Below, piece after piece: positions 5,762-24,524 of a DNA stretch of 24,947 nt (the stretch's first letter is position 1; every line of letters begins with the position of its first letter). A model generated the notes under the pieces. That model saw only the letters and a list, made by a program, of their open reading frames with translations, did not search any database and was not told the DNA's origin. Source of the DNA: a virus; the IMG/VR virus record IMGVR_UViG_3300003690_000348, positions 1-24,947 of that record; one strand, 5' to 3'. The position numbers and the translations under genes are program-made.

Positions 5762-8700
5762 TGGGCACATTAACCCCAGAAGATATTGAACGGGCACGGC
5801 TTGCCAAGCAACGGCAAATCGCCGCCAGAGAGCGTGCACAAGGGCGTGCGCTAGGTGGCCCTCTAGCACGGCCACGGCCCACCCTCGTCCCCTTGCCGCC
5901 TGATCCTAGCATGTACACACCGGAGGACCTGTACGAGCTTGGTGTAGGACCCGGTGTTACACCGTTCCCGAGGCGCAAGCAACTCCCCCGTGCCCGAGGG
6001 TTTCAGTTAGCTGTGCCGCAGGCAACAAGCAAGCCCCCTCCGATGCTTTCTGTGGAAGAGTTTTTGGCAGGGGATCCCACACAGGAGCAAGTTACCCAAT
6101 ATGAGGAAGAGCAGTACAGGCGACGAGGAGAGCCGATACGCCGCTTCGTGCGGGGTGCTTTCACCGGCGAAACGATGCGACGGCTTGCCGGAGCAGGGAC
6201 CTACCTAGCGCAAACACTAGGGTTGCCCGGAGAGGATATCAGGCAGAGAGTTGATGATAAACGTGCACTGGGCATGAGTATCAGCGATGCTACACAAGAG
6301 GTGTGGCTAGAAGGTACGGGGTGGCCCAGTGTCGACATTGCTCCTGCGGTCATGCCACCAGTAAGGGCAGCTATTGGGGCATTCACGCCATTTACTATGT
6401 TCCCCTCGGCATCTGGACCCACCTTCCTGCCAGAGGCTGAGCTTGAAGTGGGCTGGCAGGGACTCGCGGAAGTTGTCGCCGACCCCATCAACTTCATCCC
6501 TCTCAGCTGGCTCGGCAAGACGGCCAAGGTGGCCAAGGTGGCTGATGGCATTCCTGGGCTACCCCCCGGCATACGCCGGCCAAGAGGAGTGGTAGGAGAA
6601 GCGGTCACACCCCCCACCGCACCCCCCGTCACGCCTGGTGGGGATATTTTGCCTACTAGGGTACGTGATGCAATCGTACGAGTTAGGAAGGCAGTTGAAG
6701 AAGGCGTAGAAGATTATCGTGTACATGGGCCTCGTGAGGAGCAAGTTGGGGGAATCCCAGAAAGGGAAATCCCAACTGGCTGGAGGGCGGGTGTGGATCC
6801 CCAGTTGGAATCTATGGGGATGAGAAGGGTGCTTCCCACAGAAGAGATGTACATTCCCGACGTACAGCTTGAAATGGCTATGGAGTTTAAGGCTGACTGG
6901 CTTGGAGGGCTTGCAGGGGAGATGGAAAAACGGGGCGTGAAGCTCACCAATGAAGTGCGTGGTGAGCTTGAAGCCGCACAGGCATTGCTAAATGAACCTG
7001 GTAAACGGGCTCCCGCCTTGTTGTTTGATGCCATTGCAAGACGACATGGGGGCAAATCTATAGCCAACGAGTTTGATATTCTAGACGATATTCGCCCTCA
7101 TGAGTTGGGTGAAACGACTGAGGCTGGAAAGCGGTTAGACTTGAACCGCTTTGCTGCGGATTGGGATGCGAGGGGCAGGCCCGATATAGGCGGTGCGGCT
7201 AGTAGGGATGCCGAGCAGATTGCATCAGAGGTAGAATCCCTATTATATAGACCCCCCACCGCAGCCCGTGGTGCGCCTGCGAGGGTGGTAGAAGAGGGGG
7301 CTGAGGGAGTGGGTGCGCCGCTAGGAGCAGGTGCCCCAGGTACAGGCGGCAATACGCAGAAGCTATCCGCCAATGTTGGGTCTAGGGCCGAGGCGCAGGC
7401 TAATATCGCCAAAGAAGTATTTGAGCCTGTCGAAGGCAGCCGGATAGACGAAGCAGCAACGGCGTATTTGCGTGCTAGCAAGGAAGGTGAGGAGGCTATT
7501 AGCGCTGCCGGGGCCGTCGATCTTACAGACCCAATAGGACAGTATAGTCGTCGGATAACAGACAATTATAACAAGTATATCCGAGGTATGGGCCCACCAA
7601 GCAAGGACTTCCCAGTCTCACTAGCCCTTATAACTCAACCAATGAGAAATATAGGTCGATGGATTCGGTATATGACTGATCCAACACGGATGCTCCAAGC
7701 TATAGATCAGGGCGTATTCGGTGATGCGGTGCAAAGGTACGTACTGTGGCCGACGCGAAGAACGGATATAGCTTCTAAGCATTTTGCTAAAGCGCACACG
7801 ATTCTCTATCGCAAGATTCAAGACCAATATGGGATGGTGGATAGCCTCGCACAGCAACTTACTCCGGGGATAGGTCCACTCCGTGACGTTAAACGCGCCA
7901 AAATGCTGCGAAGCCTGGCGGGGGATGTTCTAGAAGAGATTTCTTATAATGATGTCAATGTACCTGTGGTGGAGCTCTTATCTCGCCCTAGTATTGCACG
8001 GTGGCTCACAAAGATCACATTTCAAGAGAAAGAGCGTGTTGTTGGGTTTGCCCAGCGTACACGCATATTCTTTGACGATCTTTTAGTAAAACAAAACCAA
8101 GCAAGGGTGGCGCGGGGCCAAGATCCTATAGGATATATTGAGAACTACCGCCCTTGGGTAGCCGAAAGCAATATATGGTCAAAAATAGGATTTGGGAAAC
8201 AAACATCAGCGCAGCTTGCAGCAAAGAAGGAGCTACCTGACTTCGTTACGCCAAAGGCTTGGTTCAACCCCAGGGCGCAGATACGAAGGGAGGGGATGGT
8301 GGATTATTGGAAGGAGCGCGACCTTCAGATACTGGCTGGGGATTATGTTGAGACAGCCAGCAAGGATATCTTCTACACCAATATCATTCAGAATGCGAAG
8401 CCATACATAAAACAGCTGAGGTCGCGCAAAGGTCTTGGTGGGGCGGCAAGGGGTGTTGAGCAGTGGATTATGGAAAGCTATGCTGGGACAAAGCCTCCTA
8501 TTAGTAAGTTTGCTATAAGCGCAGAAGAAACTGTTGGAAGGGTTGTAAAGGGAGTGACCCGCGGCAAGGTGGCTGGCGGTATTCCTATAAGAAGGGGTAT
8601 GTTTGCTGTAAGGAAAAACCTGACGAGGGCGGTTTTCCCGTTCAACTGGTCATGGAATCTGGCGACTCAAACAGCGTCTACCGCAGGTGCATTTATGCGG

Positions 8701-18022: not shown

Positions 18023-18418
18023 ATGACAACACAAGCACAAGTGCAAGCTCCTCCCAATTGGCCTGGTTCGGTCCCGGAATACGTTGCCTTCCAGACGTTT
18101 ATTGAGCTTGGGCTGGAACCTGGCGAGGACTTTACCTACCAGTCGCCGCTCATGGGCGGACGCATGGAGAAGGGTGGGTTCATTCTTGACTTCCTGTTCT
18201 CCAACCCGCCTGATTTGGCAGTTAATGTGCAGGGTGTATACTACCACTATGAGTTTGGTGTGGAGGCGAAGGCCAGGGACGTTATGGCACGGGCAAGTTT
18301 AGCGGGCCAGAACCTGACACTGGTGTTCATTGATGACGACGACCTTATGAGTGACCCCACATACTACTGCCGGGAAGCTCTTAACTACCGAGACCATTCC
18401 AGGCTAGGAGGCGGCTAG
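18023..18418 (+). CDS. Small PD-(D/E)XK nuclease-fold-like protein
   Basis: This 131-residue protein has the outline of a Vsr/DUF559-type restriction-endonuclease fold. A helix carries Glu19 (VPEYVAFQTFIELG), then a strand with GGFILDFLFS (Asp56). The strand AVNVQGVYYHYEF follows, where Gln70 occupies the position normally held by the second acidic residue. A helix (KARDVMARASLAG) and the strand LTLVFIDDDDL complete it. A metal-dependent nuclease role, for example in DNA processing or against rival DNA, is therefore possible, but the Gln substitution and missing ExK lysine leave activity uncertain. It sits between structural genes with a gapless start, and its TAG overlaps the GTG of the fibre gene. 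Confidence 0.5.
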   Translation: MTTQAQVQAPPNWPGSVPEYVAFQTFIELGLEPGEDFTYQSPLMGGRMEKGGFILDFLFSNPPDLAVNVQGVYYHYEFGVEAKARDVMARASLAGQNLTLVFIDDDDLMSDPTYYCREALNYRDHSRLGGG

Positions 18419-21070: not shown

Positions 21071-21319
21071 ATGGCAACAGGAGATGTGACGATTTCTTTG
21101 GCAGTCGAAGGCGGCGTTACTAAGACCGTGGTGCTGGACAATGCTACACGGGCATTGTCTAGGACGCACGTAGCTGGTCTAGATGCAGCCATTGATACGG
21201 ACGCTGAGTGGCAGGTCCATAACATCAACAAGCTGGGTAAGGTCATACTGGCCCAGGCCAACGCAGCAGCGCAAGCTGCGGCCTCATGGACGGCCCAGAC
21301 TTTCACGGCAGCCACGTAA
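21071..21319 (+). CDS. Small protein following tail fibre, 82 residues
   Basis: The frame is open further upstream, but the ATG at 21071 is chosen. It directly follows the fibre stop after one base and has AAGGAG at 21056-21061; longer starts would lie inside the fibre gene. The protein is strand-rich at first (GDVTISLAVEGGVTKTVVLD) and Ala-rich helical at the end (VILAQANAAAQAAASW). No membrane segment is obvious. It could be a small fibre-associated or tail accessory protein; no family is recognised. Confidence 0.7.
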   Translation: MATGDVTISLAVEGGVTKTVVLDNATRALSRTHVAGLDAAIDTDAEWQVHNINKLGKVILAQANAAAQAAASWTAQTFTAAT

Positions 21320-21342: not shown

Positions 21343-21522
21343 ATGAACATGGGAAGATTGCGTCCACAGATTATGGCGGCCATCGTTGCCGGCACGCTGT
21401 TCGGCATATTCGGTATGTGGGTAGGTATGCAGATGGGGGCCACGGAGATCGTGACCGCCGTGATTGGTAGCGTCTTCGGGTTCCTTGGGGGAGTCAGCCT
21501 CAAGGTCCTTGAGCAGGAGTAA
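21343..21522 (+). CDS. Two-helix membrane protein, holin candidate
   Basis: This 59-residue protein has two hydrophobic segments of membrane-spanning length, about residues 9-31 (QIMAAIVAGTLFGIFGMWVG) and 34-55 (EIVTAVIGSVFGFLGGVSLK), rich in Gly/Ala. The N-terminus is short and basic and the C-terminus short and acidic (LEQE). Small two-helix proteins like this at the end of phage late operons are often holins, which permeabilise the inner membrane at lysis. No endolysin is seen beside it, so the lysis role is unproven. An alternate ATG lies two codons inside. Its TAA overlaps the next ATG (TAATG), coupling it to the unusual cationic protein. Confidence 0.6.
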   Translation: MNMGRLRPQIMAAIVAGTLFGIFGMWVGMQMGATEIVTAVIGSVFGFLGGVSLKVLEQE

Positions 21523-22829
21523 TGCTGGTGCATAGATTGAGCTTCATTCTCTGGCCCTTCCGCAAGGCATTCAATGCTGCTAGGTGGTCGCTACGGCAAC
21601 TGGTGGCAGCTCTTGTCTGGGTGCTGCTGATCCCGTGGCGGGTTCTGCGGGTAGTTTGGAGGATGGCCGGGGTGGTTGGGAGGATTGCAGCGAGGATACC
21701 GGGGATGTTATTCCGAGGGGCCATTGCTCTTCCAGGGATGGTGTGGCGGTCCATGCTGGCTCTGCCAGGGCACCTCTGGAGAGGCCTCCTAGCGATACCC
21801 CGCCTTACATGGCAGGGGATACGCACCCTGGTGCGGTGGCTGTTGACTCCTCCAAGGTTGCTATGGCGGGGCATCGTGGCTGTAGCCCGAATGATTGGAC
21901 GCTCCCCCAGGAAGACCTATGAGTCGGCAAGGAGTGCTAGGGACTGGTTGCTTGCCAAAATCAACTATTTGAACAGCGAATCAGCCAAGTGGAAGATGCT
22001 GTTCAACGTCATCAAGTCGCCTTATTCACTTCTCCGGGCCGCCGGGTTCAGCCCCCAGATGGCGGCCACATTTCTTTTCGCCGGGTCTGCGGTTGGCAGT
22101 GGTGTTGTGGTAAATGAAGTGGTATTTTCAGAGGCGAGCTTTAGCCGTGGCGACCCTGGCATTTACTCTGCACCGAGTGATGCCCCGGTGTTCACAGCCG
22201 AAAACTTCAACACGTTACGCCTCGACCTGGGAACAACCCCTGTCGGGGCTGTGACGATTGAGAACATCACCGTAGGCACGGCTTATGCTAACTCAGCCCT
22301 TCCATCTGGTGAGACGAACGTAGTTATCATAGGTGGTACGGCTACGTCAACTAATCCCACGTTCAACGAAACGTATCTCCATGTGGGCCATATGGTCGTA
22401 GACCGATGGAGATGCACGACGCTCAAGCTGACCAACATAGAGGCGCATGAGCTTATCGTCAGCAGCAATGCCTCAGACGGGCAGTCGATAGCTGCCGTTG
22501 CAGGGACTCCACGAGATCGTGCCATTGGGGGTGGCAACCGTGCCGATGATATGCTGACTAGTGGCGGGTATTACGACCAGGTGAAGCTGACCAGTGCCAC
22601 GTCTGGGATCAATGGGCAGATTGATAAGCTAACACTGAGCAATTTGTACACAAAGGGCGGTGGGTGTGTCCTCGATAGAATCAAGGCCGGGACGCTGGAA
22701 ATAATTTTGAATGAGACGGGTGCGGGGGACGGTTTCGCAACTAAAGACTTTCAGATCGCAACGAGCGTGATCTACAAGTCATTCGTGAACCTAGACAACG
22801 TAGAGGTTTCTATCAGTCCGCCGTCATAG
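21522..22829 (+). CDS. Cationic Trp/Arg-repeat membrane-active-like protein with beta C-terminus
   Basis: I do not recognise this 435-residue protein. Residues 1-133 contain no Asp or Glu but 20 Arg and 2 Lys, with many Trp and aliphatic residues. At 61-93 there are three perfect-length 11-residue units (GMLFRGAIALP, GMVWRSMLALP, GHLWRGLLAIP), and related units at 94-104 and 111-121. This is the pattern of tandem amphipathic cationic helices that lie in or disrupt membranes. A mixed helical linker (134-180) leads to a hydrophobic segment (~181-202, FLFAGSAVGSGVVVNEVVF). Residues ~230-430 are then strand-rich and Asn/Thr/Gly-rich, resembling a beta-helix or beta-sandwich (IDKLTLSNLYTKGGG). It overlaps the two-helix protein gene. 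Membrane perforation for DNA entry, or lysis, is inference. Confidence 0.7.
   Translation: MLVHRLSFILWPFRKAFNAARWSLRQLVAALVWVLLIPWRVLRVVWRMAGVVGRIAARIPGMLFRGAIALPGMVWRSMLALPGHLWRGLLAIPRLTWQGIRTLVRWLLTPPRLLWRGIVAVARMIGRSPRKTYESARSARDWLLAKINYLNSESAKWKMLFNVIKSPYSLLRAAGFSPQMAATFLFAGSAVGSGVVVNEVVFSEASFSRGDPGIYSAPSDAPVFTAENFNTLRLDLGTTPVGAVTIENITVGTAYANSALPSGETNVVIIGGTATSTNPTFNETYLHVGHMVVDRWRCTTLKLTNIEAHELIVSSNASDGQSIAAVAGTPRDRAIGGGNRADDMLTSGGYYDQVKLTSATSGINGQIDKLTLSNLYTKGGGCVLDRIKAGTLEIILNETGAGDGFATKDFQIATSVIYKSFVNLDNVEVSISPPS
21702..21884 (+). repeat. Undecapeptide Trp-Arg repeats
   Basis: The consensus is G-h-h-W-R-G-h-h-A-h-P (h, hydrophobic), with the aromatic at residues 64, 75, 86, 97 and, after a short insertion, 115. 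Eleven residues make three helical turns, placing Arg on one face in every unit. Confidence 0.75.
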
Positions 22830-22855: not shown

Positions 22856-23074
22856 ATGAATTGGTTATTGAAGTTGTTGCCTGCGGATAAGAGGGCTCTA
22901 CTGGAGCTGGCTATAAGGATCACCGCCTCGCTCGACACGGCAGCGGAACGCAAGGCCGTGGCCGAGTATGGGATGAAGATGCTCTCCGCCGACTCAAAAG
23001 GTGGGCATCTCTGTACTGTGGGCGAGTGGGCGAAGTTCGGGTCTAAGTTAGGCATCTTGAAAGGCCCTCGCTAA
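22856..23074 (+). CDS. Small conserved-looking phage protein, 72 residues
   Basis: This is the last gene of the + strand operon, with AGGAGG eight bases before the ATG. The sequence is helical and amphipathic: MNWLLKLLPADKRALLELAI, TAAERKAVAEYGMKMLSAD, then a Gly/Trp-containing end (VGEWAKFGSKLGILKGP). I recall similar short proteins, ending in a VGEW-x-KFGSKLGIL-type motif, at the end of tail or lysis regions of environmental phages, but their role is unknown. The N-terminal hydrophobic stretch is too interrupted by charge to be a clear membrane helix. Confidence 0.68.
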   Translation: MNWLLKLLPADKRALLELAIRITASLDTAAERKAVAEYGMKMLSADSKGGHLCTVGEWAKFGSKLGILKGPR

Positions 23075-23141: not shown

Positions 23142-24524
23142 CTAGATAGGGGCTGGTTTGCCCCTGGCGGCGCGGGCGCGTTGCCGCTGGCCCTCCATCT
23201 CCCGCTCGAAGCCTTCCATGTCCACTGCCAGGCCGTGTTCCTTGGCAATCTCTTTCGTCAGTTCTACGGGGAAGCCGTGGGTGTCATGGAGAATGAAGGC
23301 ATCCCTGCCCGAGATTTCCCTGCGTGGAGGTTCAATGTACGCTTCTAGCAGCCCTAACCCCACTTTAAGGACACGGCTGAACCGCTTCTCCTCCAGTCCC
23401 AGCACTTGCAGCACGAAGGCACGACCACTGGTTAGCTCCGGGTAGACGCTGCCCATCTGTTGGATAACAGTTTCCGCAACAGTAGCAAGGAAGCCTCTAA
23501 ACTCATCCGGCAGAGTTGGGGGGATCTCGGACTTCAGGCCCAACTTGCGGCCAAATCGGACTGCCCGCCTGATGAGGCGGCGCAGCACGTAGCCTCGTCC
23601 CTCGTTGGATGGCACCACGCCGTCAGCGATTAGGAACGAGGCGGCACGGGTGTGCTCTGCCACCACACGGATAGCCACGTCCGTCTCGTGGTCATGGCCG
23701 TAAGGTTTCCCTGCCAGTTCTCCGACACGGTACACAATGGAGTCAAACAAGTCCGTTTCATATATGGAGGAAACCCCCTGTAGGATCATGGCGGCTCGCT
23801 CTAGCCCCATGCCAGTATCTACGTTAGGGTTGGGCAGCGGAGTACGCCTCCCCTCCGCATCCTGGTAGAACTGCATGAACACCAGGTTCCACAGCTCCAG
23901 GAAGCGGCCACACTGGCAGTTGGGGCCGCACTCCGCGTCGGGCTTGCCCAGGCGGCACGCCCCACCGAAATCGTAGTGTATCTCGCTGCACGGGCCGCAG
24001 GGGCCTTCGCTTCCGGCGGGCCCCCACCAGTTGTCCTCCTCGCCGAAGCGAAGGATGCGCTCTGCGGGGATGCCAGTCTCCTGCCACAGGCCATGGGCCT
24101 CGTCGTCGTCCCTGAACACCGTCGCCCACAGCCGCTCCGGGGCCAGCCCCATGTGCTGCGTGACGAACTCGTACCCCCAGGCGATAGCCTCATTCTTGAA
24201 ATAATCGCCAACGCTGAAGTTGCCCAGCATCTCGAAGAAGGTGAGGTGGCTGGTGTCGCCCACCTCGTCTAGGTCAGACACGCGGAAGCACTTCTGCACG
24301 CTGGTGAGCCGAGGGTGCGGCGGCGTCATCTCGCCGGTGAAGTAGGGCTTGAACTGGACCATACCTGCGCTGGTGAGCAGCAGCGTGGGGTCACCTGCCG
24401 GGATCAACGACGAACTGGGGACAAGAAGGTGCTCCTTGCCCTGGAAGAAGGCCAAGAACGCTTCCCTGATCTCTTTAGTATCCACCATGGGCATCTCATA
24501 GTGGTGGGGGGCTAGGTCGTCCAT
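23142..24524 (-). CDS. alaS: Alanyl-tRNA synthetase, catalytic and tRNA-binding part only (no editing domain)
   Basis: This 460-residue protein matches the N-terminal part of AlaRS, the class II enzyme that charges tRNA-Ala. Motif 2 lies at about residues 79-110 (Arg81, FFE at 96-98), with GNFSVGDYFK following. Motif 3 lies at 236-243 (DTGMGLER). Helical tRNA-recognition elements follow, with SNEGRGYVLRRLIRRA from 306 and HDTHGFPVELT from 413. Asn307 and Asp414 align with the E. coli Asn303/Asp400 pair that reads the G3:U70 identity base pair. A Cys cluster (190, 199, 203, 205) lies in the aminoacylation part. Full AlaRS has ~870 residues; this one stops near E. coli position ~440, with RGKPAPI replacing the linker. 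The editing domain and C-Ala are absent. Alternative starts exist at residues 11 and 13. Confidence 0.9.
   Translation of the reverse strand: MDDLAPHHYEMPMVDTKEIREAFLAFFQGKEHLLVPSSSLIPAGDPTLLLTSAGMVQFKPYFTGEMTPPHPRLTSVQKCFRVSDLDEVGDTSHLTFFEMLGNFSVGDYFKNEAIAWGYEFVTQHMGLAPERLWATVFRDDDEAHGLWQETGIPAERILRFGEEDNWWGPAGSEGPCGPCSEIHYDFGGACRLGKPDAECGPNCQCGRFLELWNLVFMQFYQDAEGRRTPLPNPNVDTGMGLERAAMILQGVSSIYETDLFDSIVYRVGELAGKPYGHDHETDVAIRVVAEHTRAASFLIADGVVPSNEGRGYVLRRLIRRAVRFGRKLGLKSEIPPTLPDEFRGFLATVAETVIQQMGSVYPELTSGRAFVLQVLGLEEKRFSRVLKVGLGLLEAYIEPPRREISGRDAFILHDTHGFPVELTKEIAKEHGLAVDMEGFEREMEGQRQRARAARGKPAPI

Follow-up and report, generated by a model that had tools for sequence, protein, structure and literature searches.

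What does a phage protein do whose first 133 residues hold no acidic residue and which ends in a predicted beta domain, and how might a phage that encodes it leave its host? Tailed phages normally exit by endolysin digestion of peptidoglycan, and SAR202 bacteria, the type of host suggested below, are abundant in the ocean. In the literature searched we found no account of how SAR202 phages exit their host, and egress from S-layered cells is an open question for most archaeal viruses too (PMC4456609). The stretch of DNA analysed here, referred to as the window, comprises the 24,947 bases of an IMG/VR virus record, and FAM is our own label for the family of the protein encoded at 21522-22829. 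The reading we prefer, to which we give a probability of about 0.4, is that FAM is a late envelope or egress factor acting with the product of the neighbouring gene c1.

The window FAM protein begins with an acid-free Trp/Arg repeat module

21522..22829, plus strand: FAM protein, 435 aa (ORF; family of well over 100 viral loci)
21522..21920, plus strand: acid-free Trp/Arg N-terminal module with a basic stripe, residues 1-133 (composition, periodicity)
21696..21818, plus strand: 11-residue repeat core, residues 59-99 (homologous variable-copy repeats in L193, L173 and L183)

The composition count agrees with the initial annotation, which had described an acid-free N-terminus with 20 Arg and 2 Lys: residues 1-133 contain no Asp or Glu, 20 Arg, 2 Lys and 10 Trp, and the first acidic residue is E134. 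The runner-up acid-free runs among correctly framed proteins of the window measure 77 and 68 residues (an 82-aa gene, ATG at 21071, was left out of this comparison and of that of the long contigs). An 11-residue repeat had also been proposed, and shuffle tests of this periodicity were significant: at a lag of 11 we counted 11 Arg pairs where 2.6 are expected (0 of 5000 shuffles) and 4 Trp pairs where 0.6 are expected (p=0.0014), and the self-identity at this lag is 31/102, compared with about 4-10 at most unrelated lags. The units read approximately IPGMLFRGAIA, LPGMVWRSMLA, LPGHLWRGLLA and IPRLTWQGIRT (residues 59-99), and the aromatics recur, as first noted, at F64, W75, W86 and W97. No tandem repeat was detectable by TRF in the DNA of window FAM, which argues that the repeat is old or maintained at the protein level.

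On a helix turning by 99 degrees per residue, one face holds the 22 basic residues (phase coherence 0.78, reached in 0 of 3000 shuffles), so that the cationic amphipathic character ascribed to this N-terminus is borne out; the Trp residues alone form no significant stripe. The 11-residue period and the one-faced helix at about 99 degrees per residue recall the 11-mer helices of perilipin and synuclein. The FAM repeats differ from these in that each contains a proline, that acidic residues are absent and that Trp is abundant. With a proline in every repeat, window FAM does not have the long array free of helix-breaking residues that characterizes the perilipin type, and the FAM array is of low copy number, most family members having other modules in its place.

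FAM is a large family with a variable, always cationic N-terminus

One close relative was found in IMG/VR, and an alignment search seeded from that relative gave 70 FAM loci; a later scan with c1 yielded 55, and these overlap the first set by at least one record. Judged from these sequence comparisons, which give well over 100 loci, FAM is a large and widespread family of marine tailed phages; its members measure 300-480 aa. The initial annotation knew of no phage family with this architecture, and window FAM indeed has no match in Pfam, PHROGs, NCBIfam, INPHARED or the PDB sequences; nor were relatives of FAM found in 84,980 bacterial and archaeal genomes. None of the five strong matches to FAM in BFVD is named, and two of them, by their length, may belong to the sister family FAM2 described below. 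The reading frame of one FAM copy (L063 7524-8423) stops resembling the family short of the end of the beta domain, probably owing to a frameshift or an assembly error.

A hydropathy scan of the 70 members predicted two N-terminal TM segments in 26, one in 19, none in 24 and three in 1, and in some members the conserved part is preceded by a mere 2-20 residues. All 91 distinct N-termini carry a net positive charge (medians of 2.1 acidic and 11.7 basic residues per 100), as expected for the cytoplasmic side. The Trp/Arg hendecad form is present in the window and in L193, whose N-terminus is identical at 79 of 122 aligned residues, the indel between the two corresponding to one 11-mer. Lys-containing versions (AIPKMLWLGL/AIPKMLWKSL) occur in L173, L174 and L183. 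Among the versions of this variable, always cationic membrane module, the Trp/Arg hendecad array is a rare one. Most relatives have TM helices or a short basic stretch in its place, so that the array is not the defining part of FAM, and the earlier idea that it is the working part of the protein finds no support: it is the beta domain and the juxtamembrane helices that are conserved instead.

The conserved half carries a probably exported beta domain

21903..22052, plus strand: juxtamembrane amphipathic helices, residues 128-177, RSPRKTY...RDWLLAK..ESAKW...SPYSLLR.AGFSP (family alignment)
22053..22121, plus strand: hydrophobic segment, residues 178-200, proposed outward-crossing anchor (family alignment; clear TM at the FAM2 equivalent)
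22128..22826, plus strand: C-terminal solenoid-like beta domain, residues 203-435 (AlphaFold2 pLDDT 94.3, pTM 0.90)
22413..22415, plus strand: Cys298, invariant (77/77 members)
22665..22667, plus strand: Cys382, invariant (77/77 members)

Conservation starts near residue 128 with the family motif RSP..Y....RDWLLAK..YLN.ESAKW..F...KSPYSLLR..GFSPQMA and extends through the hydrophobic segment into the beta domain, an arrangement in which we recover the hydrophobic link to a C-terminal beta domain seen in the initial annotation. The AlphaFold2 model of the beta domain was built with 77 sequences; in the full-length model, most of the N-terminal 189 residues are helical, at lower confidence. The segment 178-200 is of moderate hydrophobicity (Kyte-Doolittle 1.49), and 2 of the 70 members pass a Kyte-Doolittle cut of 1.8 at the anchor position. 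The hydropathy segments of FAM (about 27-45 and about 179-197) lie in its N-terminal half only. A unimolecular spanin was considered and rejected, hydropathy giving no C-terminal TM segment and the N-terminal sequence no lipobox. A signal-peptidase site after the hydrophobic segment was also dropped, because the candidate positions vary among the aligned members.

Exactly two cysteines are present in the C-terminal domain of 76 of the 77 members. We read the invariant pair as a disulfide, and the disulfide as a sign of export of the beta domain; FAM would thus have an N-in/C-out topology. The possibility of homology to a known cytosolic enzyme had been raised at the outset, and no such homology was found, the Cys pair pointing outward.

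Foldseek searches of the PDB with the full model and with the C-terminal domain gave no match below E 0.001, and the best structural Z obtained for this domain in a second look was 3.4, to a tailspike. The best aligned chains have tailspike, adhesin and lyase folds, and FAM has a solenoid-like beta domain in common with the tailspike or pectate-lyase-like beta-helix; FAM differs in these low scores and in that its domain is joined to a membrane anchor. Since no close solved relative was found, we go no further than to call the fold a solenoid-like beta domain. No lysin (muralytic) domain was matched in Pfam, PHROG or NCBIfam in 52 members. The anatomy of FAM is well supported, and we regard FAM as a well-defined, previously undescribed protein family for which a confident structural model is available.

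FAM is linked to a small holin-like gene

21343..21522, plus strand: c1, 59-aa two-TM holin-like partner (PHROG holin phrog_785, E=3.3e-4; FAM/FAM2 linkage)
22856..23074, plus strand: 72-aa helical protein, recurrent small neighbour (similar small genes near FAM/c1 elsewhere; 79% identical in G062)

The TAA stop of c1, which lies upstream, overlaps the ATG of FAM (TAATG), and the two genes are translationally coupled, as had been proposed for FAM and a two-TM gene. Members of c1 measure about 50-70 aa and have two hydrophobic segments (16 aligned); the phrog_785 match is weak and is found for only one of these 16, the window copy. Relatives of c1 are present in 30 of 40 FAM records. A search of viral contigs with window c1 alone returned 80 loci. 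Within 6 kb of c1, FAM is encoded at 55 of them and FAM2 at 12; of the 13 loci with neither, most end within about 1.3 kb of c1, and two have FAM elsewhere in the record. Hence c1 is linked to FAM or its sister FAM2 (67/80 loci); the distance between c1 and FAM is large in several long contigs.

FAM2 proteins (284-314 aa) comprise a cationic stretch, one clear TM segment and a beta domain, a layout that suggests the same topology as in FAM, and the Cys pair of FAM is not kept in them. Immediately before FAM2, L201 (1363-1677), L157 (4605-4856) and L176 (4495-4830) encode a two-TM protein of about 84-112 aa that in some of them begins in a coiled-coil-like manner, a further holin-like candidate.

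Helical proteins of 60-100 aa with no convincing family match recur by FAM or c1 in many loci (22856-23074 in the window; L061 2722-2943; L157 6199-6390). Small HExxH metalloprotease-like genes are also found near FAM or c1 (L053 9122-9610; L198 4439-4909, minus strand; L231 15502-15936). One of the three has an SprT-like Pfam match below the cut-off; such genes could encode an S-layer protease.

FAM and c1 occur in phages with unrelated virion genes

Window FAM directly follows same-strand tail genes, and in many loci the neighbours of FAM are tail or packaging genes; in one lineage it sits between NrdJ and portal, outside a lysis-like cassette (the gene names are our reading of the sequences). 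Among 15 long contigs compared, 14 contain FAM and the remaining one FAM2, and nine have no convincing match to the terminase, portal and capsid of the window (one has a 25% capsid match). In G062, a close relative, the portal is 91% and the terminase 92% identical to those of the window, compared with 61% for FAM and 59% for c1, and G066, otherwise dissimilar to the window, has a c1 that is 89% identical. The presence of FAM across phages with unrelated terminase, portal and capsid indicates that it follows the host and not the virion. This distribution agrees better with two genes that are under selection by the host envelope and pass from phage to phage than with a component of the virion, and it makes genome entry, one of the two functions first suggested, less likely.

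In an alternative reading, superinfection exclusion or surface masking, the beta domain displayed on the infected cell would block adsorption or DNA entry of related phages. An anchored and apparently outward beta domain would suit this role, as would a module that crosses unrelated phages and an arms-race-like divergence of FAM relative to portal and terminase in G062. Exclusion genes are usually expressed early, however, whereas the position of FAM after same-strand tail genes and its coupling to the holin-like c1 suggest late expression; its near-universal presence in these phages would also be unusual for an accessory gene, and we consider this explanation unlikely. It is equally doubtful that FAM is a virion component contacting the host membrane at entry. 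Its amphipathic N-termini could interact with membranes and it adjoins tail or packaging genes in many loci, but it is conserved in phages whose terminase, portal and capsid have no convincing similarity to those of the window, and the invariant Cys pair and cationic N-terminus fit a protein of the host membrane better.

The probable hosts belong to a group reported to lack peptidoglycan

The AlaRS core gene of the window nests in Chloroflexota among SAR202/Dehalococcoidia (tree support 100/99). The encoded AlaRS (23142-24524, minus strand) is only 460 aa long and consists of the catalytic core without the later domains. In L001, a 63.7-kb FAM phage, the quinolinate synthase-like NadA (6043-7239, minus strand) is 55-59% identical to that of five SAR202/Dehalococcoidia genomes, compared with 27-34% to that of two gammaproteobacteria. 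One host-like gene in each of two phages thus suggests, at the level of sequence, that the FAM phages infect Chloroflexota of the SAR202/Dehalococcoidia type. The peptidoglycan transpeptidase domain was found in none of the five SAR202/Dehalococcoidia genomes and in both gammaproteobacterial controls. SAR202 bacteria are described as having an S-layer and no peptidoglycan (PMC11994032, PMC10444878), and the same holds for the wider class to which they belong (PMC10284905).

We screened 36 module-bearing contigs, some of them possibly incomplete, for five lysin families: Amidase_2, Phage_lysozyme, M15_4 and M15_3 gave no match, and SLT gave a single match below the cut-off. As a weak control, for M15_3 only, 3 of 13 pelagiphage records were positive. 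In the pelagiphage HTVC112P, whose capsid is about 31% identical to that of the window, a peptidase M15 follows the tail fibre region, which is the position of c1 and FAM in the window.

A possible role in egress from S-layered cells

The preferred reading, a late envelope or egress factor, can be formulated as follows. FAM would be a membrane protein encoded by the phage and synthesized in the infected cell, kept on or in the cytoplasmic membrane by its cationic N-terminal module, and its hydrophobic segment would carry the disulfide-stabilised beta domain outside. In the window, a long Trp/Arg hendecad helix would serve as the anchor, its basic stripe level with the lipid head groups, a task that in most relatives would fall to a short basic stretch or to one or two TM helices. 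FAM and c1 would act together on the peptidoglycan-free, S-layered Chloroflexota envelope at the end of infection, c1 opening or collapsing the membrane and the outward beta domain binding or displacing the S-layer. The family itself, its linkage to c1, the variable and charged N-terminus, the cysteine pattern, the confident beta fold and the host markers come out of the computations, and export topology, late expression, S-layer contact and a role in egress are what we infer from them. A more specific version is that FAM (or FAM2) and c1 constitute the egress machine of tailed phages on such hosts, in which no endolysin is used and the anchored beta domain breaches the S-layer; this we put forward only tentatively. 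The membrane-perforation device initially imagined survives in a modified form, with the array as anchor, and not as a lone device with the array as effector.

The FAM locus resembles holin-containing lysis cassettes in its small two-TM partner, in its frequent position directly after tail genes and in the small TM or coiled-coil genes that neighbour it, one of which has weak Rz-like spanin matches. It differs from them in having no recognised endolysin and, as the partner, an anchored beta protein of non-enzymatic appearance. PVAP, a protein of about 100 aa with a single transmembrane domain and without a beta domain, forms sevenfold pyramids by self-assembly; FAM has 300-480 aa, a beta domain and a holin-like partner, and no homology between the two was seen. 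The parallel with PVAP (SIRV2 P98 and STIV C92, from viruses of S-layered archaea) is proposed as an analogy only, that of a viral membrane protein and a peptidoglycan-free, S-layered host (PMC4456609).

A non-lytic envelope-remodelling protein or S-layer-associated adhesin, for example one keeping infected cells attached or altering the S-layer, would agree with the weak similarity in structure to adhesins and tailspikes (Z up to 3.4) and with the lack of any recognised catalytic family in FAM, but is improbable given the tight linkage to c1 and other small TM genes, which is typical of lysis cassettes.

If FAM and c1 do replace an endolysin, they would represent a distinct solution to egress from S-layered cells. 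Even without a role in egress, the pair could flag phages of SAR202-type hosts in marine metagenomes. Elsewhere in the window, which has no tRNA genes, a 131-aa protein (18023-18418) with no Pfam or PHROG match is kept in related phages and looks like a small nuclease-type fold.
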